A stretch of 64,000 bases of DNA, taken from Phytoactinopolyspora halotolerans (GTDB lineage: Bacteria > Actinomycetota > Actinomycetes > Jiangellales > Jiangellaceae). The notes under the pieces were generated by a model. That model had not been told where the DNA came from and did not search any database. It saw nothing but the letters and a program-made list of their open reading frames with translations. Of the stretch, positions 942 through 6,297 are shown one piece after another. Both the position numbers and the translations under genes were made by a program. The DNA is taken from contig NZ_JAAGOA010000015.1 of assembly GCF_010550675.1 (NCBI RefSeq), forward strand, positions 1 to 64,000. The letters are read 5' to 3'. The first letter of the stretch is position 1. Every line of letters starts with the position of its first letter.

Positions 942-3830
942 TCACACACCGGCGGAGCCGTGGCCGCAGGGACCGGAACCGGCGCCGACCGCCATGCTCA
1001 CCAGCTCCGAGCGTGACCGGACACCAAGCTTGCGGTAGATCTTCACCAGATGGCCTTCGATGGTGCGCACCGACAGGTACAGCTCACTCGCGATCTCACG
1101 GTTGCGCCGACCCAAAGCGACGAGGCCGGCGACCCGCTGCTCGGTCTCGGTGAGCCCACCGAAGCCACCGGCCGGCAGTTCCGTGATACCGGGGCCGGTG
1201 CGCACGCCCGAACCCGTGCGGACGCCCGAGGCCCCGCGGATGCCTGAGCCATTCTCCGACTCGGCCCGCTCGGCCAGACCCAAGGCGCCGCTCTCCCGGG
1301 CCAGCAACGCGGCGCGCTGCAACCACTCCGCGGCCTCGGTTCGCTGTCCCAGCCTGCGCAGCCGCTCGCCGTAACACAGCCGCGTGTGTGCCAGTTCCAC
1401 CAGTGACACCGCATCGGAGCCCGGCTCCACGGCGGCGGCGAACAACTCCACGGACTCCTCTGCCTCCGCCACCAGCGCACGGCACCGGGCAAGCGCATGC
1501 CGTCCCCACACCGTCGGCACTCGCGCCACCCGCGACTCGAACGTCACCAGCGCCGAACGCGCCCGCTCGATCTCTCCGACCCGGACGCACGCCTCGATGA
1601 AGTCCGGCTCCGCCGCCAGCAGCGACGGATCGTCATACGCGAGGGCGTACGATTGCGCCCGTTCCAACGACGCCACCGCCTCCTCCGGCCGATTCAGGTA
1701 CAGATGCATGGCGCCGCTCTCGGACTGCACCAGGGCCGTCGTCCACCAGTCACCGAACCGGTGCGCGATCTCCACCGCATCGGCACGCGACCGCTCGGCG
1801 GCCTCGACGTCGCCCATGAGGGTGTAAACTCTGATCATCAGAGCCGGGACCTCGCCACGCCGGGTCCTGGCCGCGCCGAGAACGCGGCGCCATGCCCGCG
1901 CCGCGTCGCGAGCGGCCAGCAGCCGTCCGGCCCGCATCTCCAAAGCGGTCGACACCGCATGGACGTGCCCGGCCACCACCGGGGAGGTGCCGAAACGACC
2001 TCTCTCGACGACCGCACGGAGCAGCTCACGTGCCTCGGTGAACCGCTCCACGCGTGTCAGCACCAACGCGTGCCGGATGGATCGCGCGGGATTCGCGAGG
2101 ACGTCCACCATCCGCGAATCGACCTCGATCAATTCCCGGGCGCGGTCGAGCTCGCCGCACAACGATGCCACCCACGCCGCCGTTCGCCGATACAGGCCCT
2201 GGGTCTCCTCGGACAGCGCGGCCTCGTTCTGCTCCACCAGGTGCAGGTATCGCCGCGCCTGCAGCGGCTCGAACCGGTCCGCGAACCCGGCCGCACCGAC
2301 CAGCCAGAACTGAGCCGCAGCGTCGGGATCCGTCCGCGCCAGCAGGTCCGCCTGGCTGTCCACCAGATCGGCGGGCACCTGCCGCTCACCCAGCACACGC
2401 GCCCGCGCCTCGAGCAGCGCCAGCCGTGCACTCTGCCGCGCCGGCATCTCCACCTGGACGCGTTCGCGGGCGATGGCAATCGCCTCGTCGGTGCGTCCGG
2501 TCTGCAAGGCCAGCGTCGCGCTCAGCACGAGCCGTTCGCATCGCCGTTCCGGGTCGGATGTGAGCCGGAACGCCTCCCGCGCGAAAGCCACCGACCGCTC
2601 GTACTCACCGCGCGACACCAAGTCGGCCGACCGTCGCTGCAGGTCGGCGGCGAGCACGTCGTCGTACTCCAGTTCCGCCAGCGCGCGATGCCACAGCACC
2701 TGGTCCGCGTCGCGCTCGTCGTACGCCTTCGCCAGGAGTTGATGTGCCCGGACCCGGTCCTGCATGCCGGAGGCGTGCCACACGATCGATGCCAGCGCGG
2801 GCTCGCGCAGCCGGAACGTGCCGTCTGACACGGTCAGATGCTCCCGAATCATCCAGTCCGTCGCCGCCTGCGACGCGCCGGCCAGAGCCGACAGCACCGG
2901 CGCGAGCCGCCCGTCGGCGCTGACCGCCGCCACCAGCAGGGCGAGACGACGCTCGTCGTCGATCTTGTCGAACTCCGGGCACACGATCTCCCGGACGACG
3001 GGCGACGACGGCAGGAACCGGTCGAGCATGGCCTGACCGGTCCGCTGCTCGGTCCGCAGCCGTCCCGCCACGTCGAGCAGCGCTCGCGGGTTGCCGCCCG
3101 TGCGCTCGTAGAGTACGGCGGCGACACTCTCCGCCATGTCGTCGTAGGCCGAGAGCAGCACGTCGATGGCGCTGTCCCGGGTCAGGCCGCCCAGATGGAG
3201 CGTCGGCAGGCCGTCGAGCAGCGAGACCGAACCCGTCCGGTGCGGGTCGGCCGCCAGCACCAGCGCGACCGGTACCGACCGCAGCCGCCTGGCCACAAAG
3301 CCCAGGGCTTCCTGCGACCCGGAGTCGAGCAGGTGCGCGTCGTCCACCGCGATCAGCACCGGCACCTGGATCGATCTCAGCAACGCCAGCAGCCCCATGG
3401 CAGCCTGATACGTGCTCGCCGCCTGGTCGTCGAGGCGCTCGAGGAATTGTGCCGCTTCGGACTCGAACGTCGTCCCGCCGTCGTCGGCACGCAGACGCTC
3501 GCCCGCCAAGGAGCCGAAGAGGCCGGACAGGATCAGGTGCAGGCCGGAGTACGGCCACCCGCGTTCCGCCTCGACCGCGGTGACGCGTGAGACCACAGGC
3601 TGAGCCGCGCCTCGGGATTTGTCTCCGGCACCGGGCGGATCGTGAACGCCGGGTGCGTCGCGAACCATGTCGGCGACGGCTCGCAGGAGCGCGGTTTTGC
3701 CGACGCCGGCAGGGCCGACGACGATGCTTGCGCCACCATGCCCGCTGTGTAGCCCGTCGACGACAACGCGCAGCTTATCGAGTTCCCGTTCTCGTCCGAG
3801 AACGATTCCAGCCGTGCTGTGACCCCTCAT
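942..3830 (-). CDS. LuxR-family transcriptional regulator with AAA ATPase domain (LAL type)
   Basis: A large ATP-binding regulator of about 962 residues. The N-terminus has a Walker A motif GPAGVGKT (about residues 39-46) and a Walker B-like LIAVDDAH; the middle is a long alpha-helical, TPR-like region; the last 70 residues form a LuxR helix-turn-helix beginning LTETEQRVAGLVALGRRN. This order is that of the MalT/LAL class, in which ATP and an inducer control DNA binding. An open frame runs further upstream, but I start at the ATG giving MRGHSTAGIVLGRERELDKL because GAGGGG lies 8 bases before it and the family motif begins there. It is a single gene; its target is unknown. A repeated motif in its promoter region could be an autoregulatory site. 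Confidence 0.9.
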   Translation of the reverse strand: MRGHSTAGIVLGRERELDKLRVVVDGLHSGHGGASIVVGPAGVGKTALLRAVADMVRDAPGVHDPPGAGDKSRGAAQPVVSRVTAVEAERGWPYSGLHLILSGLFGSLAGERLRADDGGTTFESEAAQFLERLDDQAASTYQAAMGLLALLRSIQVPVLIAVDDAHLLDSGSQEALGFVARRLRSVPVALVLAADPHRTGSVSLLDGLPTLHLGGLTRDSAIDVLLSAYDDMAESVAAVLYERTGGNPRALLDVAGRLRTEQRTGQAMLDRFLPSSPVVREIVCPEFDKIDDERRLALLVAAVSADGRLAPVLSALAGASQAATDWMIREHLTVSDGTFRLREPALASIVWHASGMQDRVRAHQLLAKAYDERDADQVLWHRALAELEYDDVLAADLQRRSADLVSRGEYERSVAFAREAFRLTSDPERRCERLVLSATLALQTGRTDEAIAIARERVQVEMPARQSARLALLEARARVLGERQVPADLVDSQADLLARTDPDAAAQFWLVGAAGFADRFEPLQARRYLHLVEQNEAALSEETQGLYRRTAAWVASLCGELDRARELIEVDSRMVDVLANPARSIRHALVLTRVERFTEARELLRAVVERGRFGTSPVVAGHVHAVSTALEMRAGRLLAARDAARAWRRVLGAARTRRGEVPALMIRVYTLMGDVEAAERSRADAVEIAHRFGDWWTTALVQSESGAMHLYLNRPEEAVASLERAQSYALAYDDPSLLAAEPDFIEACVRVGEIERARSALVTFESRVARVPTVWGRHALARCRALVAEAEESVELFAAAVEPGSDAVSLVELAHTRLCYGERLRRLGQRTEAAEWLQRAALLARESGALGLAERAESENGSGIRGASGVRTGSGVRTGPGITELPAGGFGGLTETEQRVAGLVALGRRNREIASELYLSVRTIEGHLVKIYRKLGVRSRSELVSMAVGAGSGPCGHGSAGV

Positions 3831-3865
3831 CAGCGTCCCCTCTGCCCACCATCCCGGGAACGAAC

Positions 3866-3890
3866 CCGGTTTCTGAGGGTACCGGTTTCT
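3866..3890 (-). promoter_or_regulatory. Candidate operator: direct repeat upstream of the LuxR-family gene
   Basis: The 9-mer AGAAACCGG (minus strand) occurs twice, at 3866-3874 and 3882-3890, start-to-start 16 bases apart. It lies 36-60 bases upstream of the regulator's start codon. Two same-face half-sites in this place fit a regulator binding site, perhaps autoregulatory. The repeat is seen; the role is inferred. Confidence 0.35.
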
Positions 3891-4537
3891 AGTTGCAACG
3901 CAAAAGGCCCAGTTGTCGGGACATGTTCGGCAATCGACCCATGAATCGTGCATGTGACGCATATTGCGCTCTGGCGCAGGTTTGCTCACGCATTAGTGAC
4001 GAACACGGTGGACGCTGCGCTGTTCCGGCAGTAGCCGATCAGCCACTCCCAGCGGCGTCCGCGTGTCTCCGCCGGCGGGACGGACGAATTCGTCGGCGAC
4101 GGTTCGGCTGCGTCCGGTTGGACGTTTGCAGCAAGTCCGCAGCGTCATCGCGTTCGGGCTCGCCCAGCGTCAGAGCCGGCAGTGTATCCACGGCAAGCAC
4201 CGGGCTCTGAGCCCTGCCGAACAATGACAGCAGATCGACGGCCACGTCCTGCGGCGGCGGTACAGCGTCGAGACCGCGGACCACGGCGCCGATCCGCATC
4301 TCCGTCTCCGGCCGGGCGGCTTGCGGCCGGGCGCCGGGAAACCGCCCGCGCCGACGGCCGGGCACATCGACAGGCGGGTATGTCCAGCCGGCACGACGAT
4401 GTCAGCGAGGCCCAGGCCCAACGTACGACGGCCGCCGAACGGCCGCTCTTGTGAACCGGATGGACGACACGCGACGGTGACCGTCGGTTGATCCGTCGGC
4501 CGGGAAACCGGCGACTCGCCCGAGCCCGTGTCCCGGC
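3891..4537. other. Intergenic region without a recognisable intact gene
   Basis: No open frame here has a convincing start or family match. On the minus strand around 4120-4305 a stretch beginning MRIGAVVRGLDAVPPPQDV reads like real protein (balanced hydrophobic residues, few arginine runs) but then passes into arginine-rich noise. The preceding protein-like piece around 4400-4440 (GLGLADIVVPAGHTR) is in another frame. This could be a frameshifted gene relic that I cannot identify. Confidence 0.4.
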
Positions 4538-4676
4538 GGTGATACTCCGCTCCCATGGTTTGGGGGGCGCGGAGCGGAGCATCACCTTCCCTGGAGACAG
4601 GTGAGACACGCCAGCCTTCTGCGACGGATCACCCTTGCCTATCAGGAGACGGCGGGGAGACGAATCAGCACGCGGG
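4538..4676 (-). repeat. Structured repeat, copy A (hairpin plus two conserved blocks)
   Basis: Arms at 4538-4553 and 4571-4586 form a 16-base stem around a 17-base loop. The only non-Watson-Crick position becomes a G-U pair if the minus strand is transcribed. Two further blocks follow that are shared with copy B: TCACCCTTGCC at 4629-4639 and CGAATCAGCACGCGGG at 4661-4676. Their spacing (32 bases start to start) is identical in both copies. The pattern suggests a minus-strand structured RNA or the ends of a small element. Confidence 0.55.
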
Positions 4677-4733
4677 TCCCCGAGAAATTCTGTCGATCCG
4701 GCCCGCGCGGGATCCACGTGAGACTTCAGCTGG

Positions 4734-4775
4734 GTGAACTTCACTTGACTGAACTACAGTGAACTGAACTTAGAC
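4734..4775 (+). promoter_or_regulatory. Candidate promoter/operator with four TGAACT hexamers
   Basis: TGAACT occurs at 4735, 4750, 4760 and 4765, so the spacings are 15, 10 and 5 bases. TTGACT at 4745-4750 could serve as a -35 box. The cluster ends exactly where the DUF234 relic reading frame begins, so this may be the leftover control region of a gene now lost, or an operator for a regulator elsewhere. The repeats are seen; the role is inferred. Confidence 0.35.
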
Positions 4776-5313
4776 GGAGCGCGTCATCGCCGTCGATCGC
4801 CCGCTTTCGACCCGATCTCAAGAGAAAGACCGCGTGGCCGACCCATATCTCCGCTTCTACCTGGCATTTCTTCAGACGGGCCTTCCCGCCGTCGAACGTA
4901 GCTGACCGGATCTGCTAATACGAAGGATTCAACGCAGCTGGGAGTCTTGGAGGGGGCGGGCGATCGAGCCCGTCGTCCGGGACGCGGTTCTGCGTATCGC
5001 CCCTGAATTGGGCTGGCCCGACGTCGAACAGGTCGGTGGCTGGTGGAACCGCCAGAACAATCCGGAGGTCGACCTCATTGGGGCAGATCGTCCGGAGGTT
5101 GCCCGCCGAGTCGTTTTTGCCGGGAGCATCAAGTGGCACGAGACGAAGCGATTCGACGATCACGACCACCATATGCTCGTCCGCGAGGCCACAGCCGTCC
5201 CCGGTTTCGACGAGAACACCGACCTCGTGGCAGTAAGCCGCGGCGGATTCGCACCCAGCTTGCCGGTGCGGCAGATCGGCCCGACGGACCTCGTCGAAGC
5301 ATGGCAACAATGA
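4774..5313 (+). pseudogene. Relic of an AAA-family ATPase: C-terminal DUF234 region, truncated and interrupted
   Basis: Reading plus-strand frame 1 from 4774 gives a continuous match to the C-terminal part of archaeal-type ATPases with a DUF234 domain. The pieces appear in order: VADPYLRFYLAFLQTGLP (about 4834-4887), an in-frame TGA at 4903-4905, SWESWRGRAIEPVVRDAVLR (about 4936-4995), VGGWWNR then EVDLIGAD, FAGSIKW and LVAVSRGGF, ending in a stop at 5313. The N-terminal ATPase part with Walker motifs is absent and the frame is closed by TAG at 4771. Both the missing 5' end and the internal stop mark it as a pseudogene. A TTG-initiated short product from 5008 is formally possible but would hold only the last third. 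It sits between the two structured repeats. Confidence 0.75.
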
Positions 5314-5338
5314 TCAGCGAAGATTCGCGCTGCGCTGT

Positions 5339-5482
5339 CCACGGTGGACGCTCCGCTCCCGAGAATGGGGGGCAGGGAACGGAGCGTCATCCCCCGTGGA
5401 TAGGCGGGTGAAGACTGCGTGGACACCGCGACCGTCACCCTTGCCATAGAAGAGGCGTCTGCGCAGCGAATCAGCACGCGGG
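5339..5482 (-). repeat. Structured repeat, copy B (hairpin plus two conserved blocks)
   Basis: Diverged second copy of the element at 4538-4676. Arms 5347-5360 and 5375-5388 form a 14-base stem with a 14-base loop, again with one mismatch that becomes G-U on the minus strand. CCACGG at 5339-5344 and CCGTGG at 5394-5399 can add an outer stem. The shared blocks are TCACCCTTGCC at 5435-5445 and CGAATCAGCACGCGGG at 5467-5482. The stem sequence differs from copy A while pairing is kept, which favours a structure-conserving role. Confidence 0.55.
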
Positions 5483-5695: not shown

Positions 5696-6148
5696 CTAGG
5701 ACTGGATCTCCTGTGCCGACGAACTATGCGTCTCGACAGCCTGACCGACATCGGCTCGTGTGACCTCGATACGGCGCGGCTTCGCCTGTTCAGCCACGGG
5801 AATGGTCAGGGTCAGCACACCGTCGGCGTAGGTTGCATCGATCTTGTCGAGCGACAGGCCGTCGCCCAGGTTCAACTGCCGCGCGTAGGTGCCGACGGCA
5901 CGTTCCCGCGCCAGCCACTGCACGTTCTCCCGCGAGCGGCCGGTCCGCTCGGCGCGGACGGTCAGCGTGCTGTTCTCGACGCTCACGTCGATCGAACCGG
6001 GATCGATGCCCGGGAGATCGAAGTGAAGGACGTAGTGATCCTCGGTCCGGTAGAGATCCATCGGCATGGTCGCCGCATTGCGGGCCGCGCCCAGCAGGTG
6101 CTCGGCGAGACGGTCCATCTCGCGGAACGGATCGAAACGAGTTACCAC
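5696..6148 (-). CDS. Hsp20/alpha-crystallin small heat-shock protein
   Basis: An ATP-independent cytoplasmic holdase of about 150 residues that binds unfolding proteins. The alpha-crystallin domain runs from MDLYRTEDHYVLHFDLPGID to YADGVLTLTIP, near residues 35-130, with the expected short N-terminal arm (RFDPFREMD). I start at a GTG giving MVTRFDPF because a perfect AGGAGG lies 8 bases upstream; the open frame extends a further 43 codons into the operator region, which cannot be coding. About 120 bases upstream is a CIRCE inverted repeat, so HrcA repression at normal temperature is expected. A strong hairpin follows the stop codon, so it is probably transcribed alone. Confidence 0.93.
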   Translation of the reverse strand: MVTRFDPFREMDRLAEHLLGAARNAATMPMDLYRTEDHYVLHFDLPGIDPGSIDVSVENSTLTVRAERTGRSRENVQWLARERAVGTYARQLNLGDGLSLDKIDATYADGVLTLTIPVAEQAKPRRIEVTRADVGQAVETHSSSAQEIQS

Positions 6149-6270
6149 ACCAACCACCTCCTGACTCTCACTGCTTCGCCCAAGTGCGGAGCATTCACTG
6201 GTGTGATGCCGCCGTCTAACCCTGGGCATCCCGGATGAACCCAGGATGACAGGCGGTTGCAGTACATAAT

Positions 6271-6297
6271 TTAGCACTCTCCACCCCAGAGTGCTAG
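6271..6297 (-). promoter_or_regulatory. CIRCE operator (HrcA site)
   Basis: TTAGCACTC, nine bases, GAGTGCTAG: this matches the CIRCE consensus at 17 of 18 arm positions with the exact 9-base spacer. It lies between the GDH stop codon and the Hsp20 gene, oriented to control the latter. HrcA is the known repressor for this element. Confidence 0.92.

Follow-up and report, generated by a model that had tools for sequence, protein, structure and literature searches.

A narrow-range family of predicted small RNAs with a probable ECF-type promoter in Phytoactinopolyspora and Jiangella

Two diverged repeats near the start of a Phytoactinopolyspora contig represent a new family of small RNAs with a narrow range, which looks uncatalogued and has a probable promoter of the ECF sigma type, its expression, sigma factor and targets being predictions from sequence. 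The repeats are best explained as tandem genes of a stand-alone small RNA of about 100–110 nt, encoded on the minus strand, which would be transcribed from an ECF-type promoter and whose loop of six C (C6) would pair with runs of six G (G6) in the leaders of certain mRNAs. We assign this explanation as a whole a probability of roughly 0.6. Comparison between genomes shows a conserved predicted fold behind a fixed upstream motif, consisting of a first helix (P1), a G-run, and a second hairpin (P2) with a GCCCCCC loop; in the searches made, the element was found only in the genera Phytoactinopolyspora and Jiangella. An undescribed class of small RNA had been one of the options raised in a preliminary description of this DNA, and it is favoured by the conserved fold, by the minus-strand orientation and by the lack of any match to the window in an Rfam search at gathering score. 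No published description of this RNA was found in a literature search.

In genome G000, contig C7 opens with the window, i.e. the whole stretch of 64,000 nucleotides analysed here. The two diverged repeat copies noted in the preliminary description are indeed homologous (4536–4676 and 5342–5482, Table 1), and the 32-base spacing of their two conserved blocks holds in both, with TCACCCTTGCC starting from 4629 and 5435, and CGAATCAGCACGCGGG from 4661 and 5467, respectively. The long stems (4538–4553 with 4571–4586 in copy 1, and 5347–5360 with 5375–5388 in copy 2) each feature one imperfect pair whose position differs between copies, and which is A.C on the plus strand and G.U on the minus strand, as previously remarked. 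Stems and blocks share the same offset of 806 bases from copy 1 to copy 2. Beyond the features described earlier, a second helix and a G-run are present in each copy. Both copies are among the 8 sequences used as seeds of the covariance model R1, so that independent evidence is provided by the homologues in other genomes. The next-best R1 match in the window (23.6 bits, 5265–5393, plus strand) was rejected as an extra copy, being a shadow of the copy 2 palindrome. Separately, the 18 bases at positions 4004–4021 match those at the end of copy 2 (5340–5357) to 94%; this is perhaps a remnant of a third copy, or due to chance.

Table 1. Features of the window associated with the predicted small RNA genes.
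Feature	Position	Strand	Evidence or remark
Copy 2 (W2), promoter-like block and predicted small RNA, upstream copy	5342..5482	-	R1 123.1 bits, model seed
Copy 2 promoter-like motif, GCGTGCTGAT-N15-CTCTT	5450..5479	-	0-mismatch match; motif recurs at other genes
Copy 2 P1 5′ arm (GGCAAGGGUGA, the TCACCCTTGCC block of the preliminary description), near presumed transcript start	5435..5445	-	Pairs with 5403-5411
Copy 2 P1 3′ arm (UCACCCGCC)	5403..5411	-	Pairing with 5′ arm
Copy 2 G-run (ACGGGGG), which may pair with the C6 loop	5391..5395	-	ACGGGGG in 18/20 readable copies
Copy 2 P2 hairpin, 14 bp, loop CCCCCC at 5367-5372	5347..5388	-	Stem and covariation
Copy 1 (W1), promoter-like block and predicted small RNA, downstream copy	4536..4676	-	R1 114.4 bits, model seed
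Copy 1 promoter-like motif, GCGTGCTGAT-N15-CTCCT	4644..4673	-	0-mismatch match
Copy 1 P1 helix (4629-4634 with 4599-4604) and loop	4599..4634	-	P1 arm-pairing test
Copy 1 P2 hairpin, 16 bp, loop CCCCCC at 4562-4567; G-run broken (GGGAAGG)	4538..4586	-	
LuxR-family ATPase (LAL-type) regulator, recurring neighbour	942..3989	-	AAA_16 and GerE; cluster c0
DUF234-type gene fragment	4834..5313	+	One in-frame stop at 4903-4905; ATPase part absent

Relatives of copy 2 were detected by blastn in the genus and the family. R1 was run on 22 genomes of the order and detected the element in 17, namely all five of Phytoactinopolyspora and all twelve of Jiangella; it was not found in the remaining five, which come from four further genera and include two incomplete genomes. 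Full-length copies number one or two per genome, with a single copy in each Jiangella genome and none in G000 beyond the pair in the window. In a class-wide R1 search of 393 genomes under stricter filters, 19 genomes matched, i.e. the 17 carriers and two with weak matches (L085 and L086, 34 and 30 bits), which have no P2 hairpin with a C-run and were not retained as members. A pattern search with the G-run and both stem strands fixed and the loop left free was also run against one genome each of 84,980 species, a collection that may omit records near the window. It returned 36 matches, including 10 in Jiangellaceae (9 species) that all carry CCCCCC in the loop, and 26 others none of which has five C in a row.

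The fold is conserved while its sequence changes, in keeping with the pattern first noticed between the two window copies. GCCCCCC lies in the predicted P2 loop in 19 of 21 copies (exceptions L075 and L080), and ACGGGGG just before P2 in all readable copies except L075 and L077 (L078 reads N). Across 19 sequences, excluding L078, with its run of N, and the long, divergent L080, P2 is 95.5% paired and 5 of its 14 pairs have changed on both sides. This covariation score was reached by none of 500 shuffles that keep sequence relatedness, and sliding the partner strand of P2 lowers every measure. The wobble cells of P2 comprise 13 G.U and no A.C in these 19 sequences, which indicates an RNA on the minus strand, as initially suggested on the basis of the one imperfect pair per stem. 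Single-sequence folds compared with shuffles yielded z values of -3.25 and -2.48 for the minus strand, and of -0.38 and -1.58 for the plus strand. The sequence of P1, by contrast with its pairing, is largely replaced between species and poorly alignable, and RNAalifold on the first MAFFT alignment missed the helix. Since P1 is too changeable to align, it was tested by permutation instead: in 12 representatives (L078 left out), the pairing of each arm with its own partner sums to -253.2 kcal/mol, a value reached by 3 of 100,000 permutations, so that arms fit their own partners better than swapped ones and P1 re-pairs between species. The own arm was best of all twelve in 5 representatives, and ranked third to eighth in the other 7, to which the two copies of the window and the most frequent type in Jiangella belong. 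There is no U-tract after P2. A small protein was rejected as an explanation, as the distance from the promoter-like motif to the G-run varies by non-multiples of three.

Upstream of P1, all copies feature the motif GCGTGCKGAT-N15-CTCYT with small departures, and P1 begins about ten bases further on; the spacer is 15 bases in 20 of 21 copies and 14 in L079. No published description of this motif was found in a literature search. The CGAATCAGCACGCGGG block of the preliminary description forms the first part of the motif, and P1 starts at TCACCCTTGCC; the 32 bases between them therefore approximate the usual distance from a -35 element to a transcript start. The fixed spacing thus looks like that of a promoter and its transcript start. 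The same motif recurs near genes for ECF sigma factors and for giant surface proteins. The neighbouring ECF sigma factor contains Sigma70_r2 and r4 domains, and an ECF gene adjoins the small RNA in divergent orientation in G003, G004, G012 and G015. For 22 of 38 exact motif sites (four matches in G021 excluded), one of 40 ECF relatives is found no more than 10 kb away, compared to about 0.24 expected under uniform placement; the relatives were the stronger 40 of 66 rows, the 26 weaker having been dropped, and their family was chosen for being adjacent. The ECF assignment is based on location. Eighteen of the exact sites are at the small RNA itself, and 9 of the remaining 20 are within 10 kb of an ECF relative.

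A second element distinguishes the protein genes from the small RNA. Of the 32 sites found in the fetched regions at no more than one mismatch, all 15 at other genes have a CRP-like site (GTGA-N6-TCAC, at most one mismatch) upstream of the motif, 3 bases away in 12 cases and 9–10 bases away in 3, whereas none of the 17 at the small RNA does. Several of these CRP-type sites stand before giant surface-protein genes; three giants were scanned for domains, one matching SdrD_B and a wall anchor and two matching DUF7927/DUF11 repeats. No CRP-like site accompanies three exact occurrences of the motif remote from the locus (G000:C13, G000:C45 and G004:C1), and these may be due to chance. The data lend fairly good support to the inference that the motif serves as promoter for a sigma factor of the ECF type whose gene lies in this locus, and which would also drive the giants; alternatively, another activator could bind the -35-like block. 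The arrangement is strict at the Jiangellaceae giant surface-type genes L131, L109, L128, L149 and L154, where the CRP-like site lies exactly 3 bases before the motif. In Jiangella, motif and CRP-like site also precede a short reading frame (L081–L084 and L116); an ECF gene adjoins them in G013, G014 and G018, and in G009, G010, G017 and G019 the nearest ECF relative is 33–39 kb away. L081–L084 were rejected as RNAs, their match being confined to the promoter block.

Candidate targets are suggested by the leaders of genes in the same loci. G6 was first seen in four giant leaders and then tested in the loci of 13 genomes and the window, where it occurs in 39 of 535 regions upstream of predicted genes. 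In Phytoactinopolyspora, GGGGGGC was found upstream of 7 of 11 giants (genes of more than 1,200 codons, a conserved dehydrogenase-like one excluded) and of 4 of 210 other genes (p = 2e-8, overstated as p-values are here because the compared leaders are partly orthologous), with corresponding figures for G6 alone of 7/11 and 10/210. With two leaders read to a later start and one giant added that gene prediction had missed, 10 of 12 giants have G6 (8 G6C and 2 G6U), the giants without it being G001:C30:11565 and G004:C2:673470; two further giants of G001 have no leader on their contigs. In Jiangella, GGGGGGC is present instead in the leader of the LAL regulator gene in 8 of 8 cases, compared to 5 of 266 other genes, and the tally over all regions is 12 of 12; these LAL genes are orthologous and thus represent one conserved tract. 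G6 was found in none of the three readable Phytoactinopolyspora LAL leaders, including that of the window, with G6U in G004. Elsewhere in Jiangella, 3 of 11 leaders of DUF7927 giants have G6 (G009, G014 and G019, orthologous), and the one such leader of G006, a genome without the small RNA, has none. Among contigs of G000, C14 (G000:C14:1-40000; L223 and L224) carries two giants with G6 leaders and two ECF relatives near one of its ends, which may adjoin the start of the window, judging from the order in G002.

Pairing was compared between the small RNA and 6C, an actinobacterial RNA with C-rich loops. The better of a genome's own small RNA loops pairs over 8–10 nt with 8 of 10 Phytoactinopolyspora giant leaders, compared to 6 nt for 6C, and the other 2 (GGGGGGU) favour 6C. 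For the Jiangella LAL leaders, 2 of 8 favour the small RNA and 6C ties with it in the other 6; the gap between the two RNAs narrows when G.U pairs are allowed. Pairing of loop and leader, as in the 6C RNA B11, is the likely mechanism. Less certain than the promoter assignment is the proposal that the six-C loop pairs with GGGGGG(C) leader tracts and changes the translation or the stability of the mRNAs concerned, which would be those of surface giants in Phytoactinopolyspora and of the neighbouring LAL regulator in Jiangella. The G-run preceding P2 may serve to mask the loop.

It is also conceivable that the small RNA is real and that its C6 loop acts on a protein, or on the RNA itself by pairing with the G-run within or between molecules, the G6 of the leaders being unrelated or a target of 6C. 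We regard this as unlikely, though not negligible. The co-occurrence of ACGGGGG and GCCCCCC in 17 of 20 readable copies would be expected under such a scheme, and the ties with 6C in Jiangella LAL leaders and the low frequency of G6 in the other Jiangella giants speak for it; what it leaves unaccounted for is the strong enrichment of G6C in leaders of the locus and the better fit of the small RNA than of 6C to most Phytoactinopolyspora giant leaders. The G-run and the loop seldom vary across copies, and the 14 bp of P2 are long for an intramolecular pseudoknot.

Another possibility is that the element is itself a diverged 6C (RF01066), present as an additional copy and with the same action as this C-rich-loop RNA has in other actinobacteria. 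Extra 6C genes have been reported in some mycobacteria (PMC9569102), and 6C was the best Rfam match obtained, with 26.3 bits (element in L015, E = 0.14 for 351 bases) and the loop aligned on CCCCCC. Nevertheless, this score is far below the 6C gathering threshold of 47 bits, and a separate 6C gene exceeds the cut-off in G000 (G000:C12:154908-154978, 48.7 bits), as 6C does in 16 of 22 genomes; no copy of the small RNA was among the 6C matches listed for these 22 genomes. Moreover, both loops of 6C are C-rich in these genomes, whereas the small RNA has a C-run in P2 only and a P1 loop that is not C-rich, and the sequence upstream also differs. The score, the architecture and the existence of another locus for 6C led us to reject membership in that family, and this reading appears improbable.

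The neighbourhood of the element bears on whether it is transcribed as a free RNA. The LAL regulator is found in 16 of 19 regions, including all 12 of Jiangella, and lies 5.8 kb away in G004. Across the 19 regions, the gene following the small RNA converges on it in 13, has the same direction in 5 and is unclear in 1 (L087); the prevailing convergence speaks for a free RNA. The 5 co-directional cases could be taken to suggest that the element acts in cis, as a leader or attenuator for the gene behind it, but that gene differs between species: it is LAL in the window and in G002, hsp20 in G001, a surface giant for the second copy of G003, and an ANTAR gene in G012. In the window, moreover, LAL starts about 550 nt beyond P2. 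We therefore consider such a leader improbable as well. In 10 of the 12 regions from Jiangella, the small RNA is also flanked by genes that cluster with a GAF-ANTAR protein (L088–L097), frequently in runs of several; Pfam was applied to one member of the cluster. A CIRCE-like inverted repeat, TTAGCACTC-N9-GAGTGCTAG, at 6271–6297 of the window precedes the Hsp20 gene at 5696–6277, with a similar repeat in G001 (L015).

The two window copies had been described as flanking a dead ATPase gene. The gene is indeed broken, featuring an in-frame stop, but only a DUF234-type fragment is present and the ATPase part is absent. The open part at 5008–5313 matches DUF234 with E = 0.0013, below the Pfam cut-off, and the same frame continues upstream of 5008 to about 4834 with one in-frame stop, a stretch which we take to be DUF234-like too. 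G002 contains one copy of each type (L075 and L078) only 47 nt apart with no gene between them, i.e. the gap occupied by the fragment in the window is empty there, so that the presence of the fragment looks incidental; it may be an insertion or a leftover. A general link of the copies to a broken ATPase-type gene likewise looks incidental, as each Jiangella genome has a single full-length copy and nothing is flanked there. The loop of the type-1 copy of G002 is reduced to CCCC, and the G-run of the type-1 copy of the window is broken, so that the second copy seems to drift. The preliminary description also envisaged a mobile-element end or the duplicated flank of a deletion. In favour of such readings, with the deletion around an ATPase-type gene, two copies border a broken gene fragment. 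They are nevertheless very improbable: each genome carries no more than two full-length copies, in a single kind of neighbourhood, dispersed copies were not found, G000 has no other copy, and the pair of G002 lies close together without the fragment.

Returning to tandem small RNA genes as the preferred reading, an ECF-type sigma factor of the locus would drive both the small RNA and the giant surface-protein genes, the latter with a CRP-like site in front, and a single system would thereby make an mRNA and its RNA regulator alike. It is tempting to speculate further that this constitutes a regulatory loop specific to Jiangellaceae, in which one ECF sigma system, with CRP, makes the giants and also a small RNA whose six-C loop matches a G6 tract in leaders of the locus. 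As this tract is on the LAL regulator in Jiangella and on the giants in Phytoactinopolyspora, the small RNA would have been re-targeted between the sister genera with its loop unchanged; this extended scenario is possible but rather doubtful. Targets are known for few actinobacterial small RNAs. For the RNA considered here, there is a probable promoter, a set of genes that would be co-regulated, and a legible C6/G6 pairing code that differs between the two genera, so that the evolution of its predicted targets could be tested by swapping a few bases in harmless bacteria from the environment. It would also be a case in which a C-rich loop is put to use independently of the 6C gene present in the same genomes.

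Three known systems are close to the element. As in ECF sigma regulons, a fixed two-block motif lies in the vicinity of ECF genes and is shared by several genes of a single locus; unlike in these, a CRP-like site accompanies it at a fixed distance for protein genes. Ms1 RNA is likewise an actinobacterial small RNA, reported for Jiangella, but is described as binding the RNA polymerase core (PMC9130861), and was compared here only through the Rfam gathering search of the window. 6C, which also occurs in actinobacteria, resembles the small RNA in its pair of helices and its six-C loop; the small RNA differs from it by having one C-rich loop rather than two, another sequence and another upstream region. 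The mycobacterial 6C RNA B11 is reported to repress via the 5′ UTR of eccB4, which has a six-G tract, and to need one of its two C-rich loops, repression being lost only when both are mutated (PMC10470900). If the predicted targets are right, the small RNA would work like 6C without being a member of that family.
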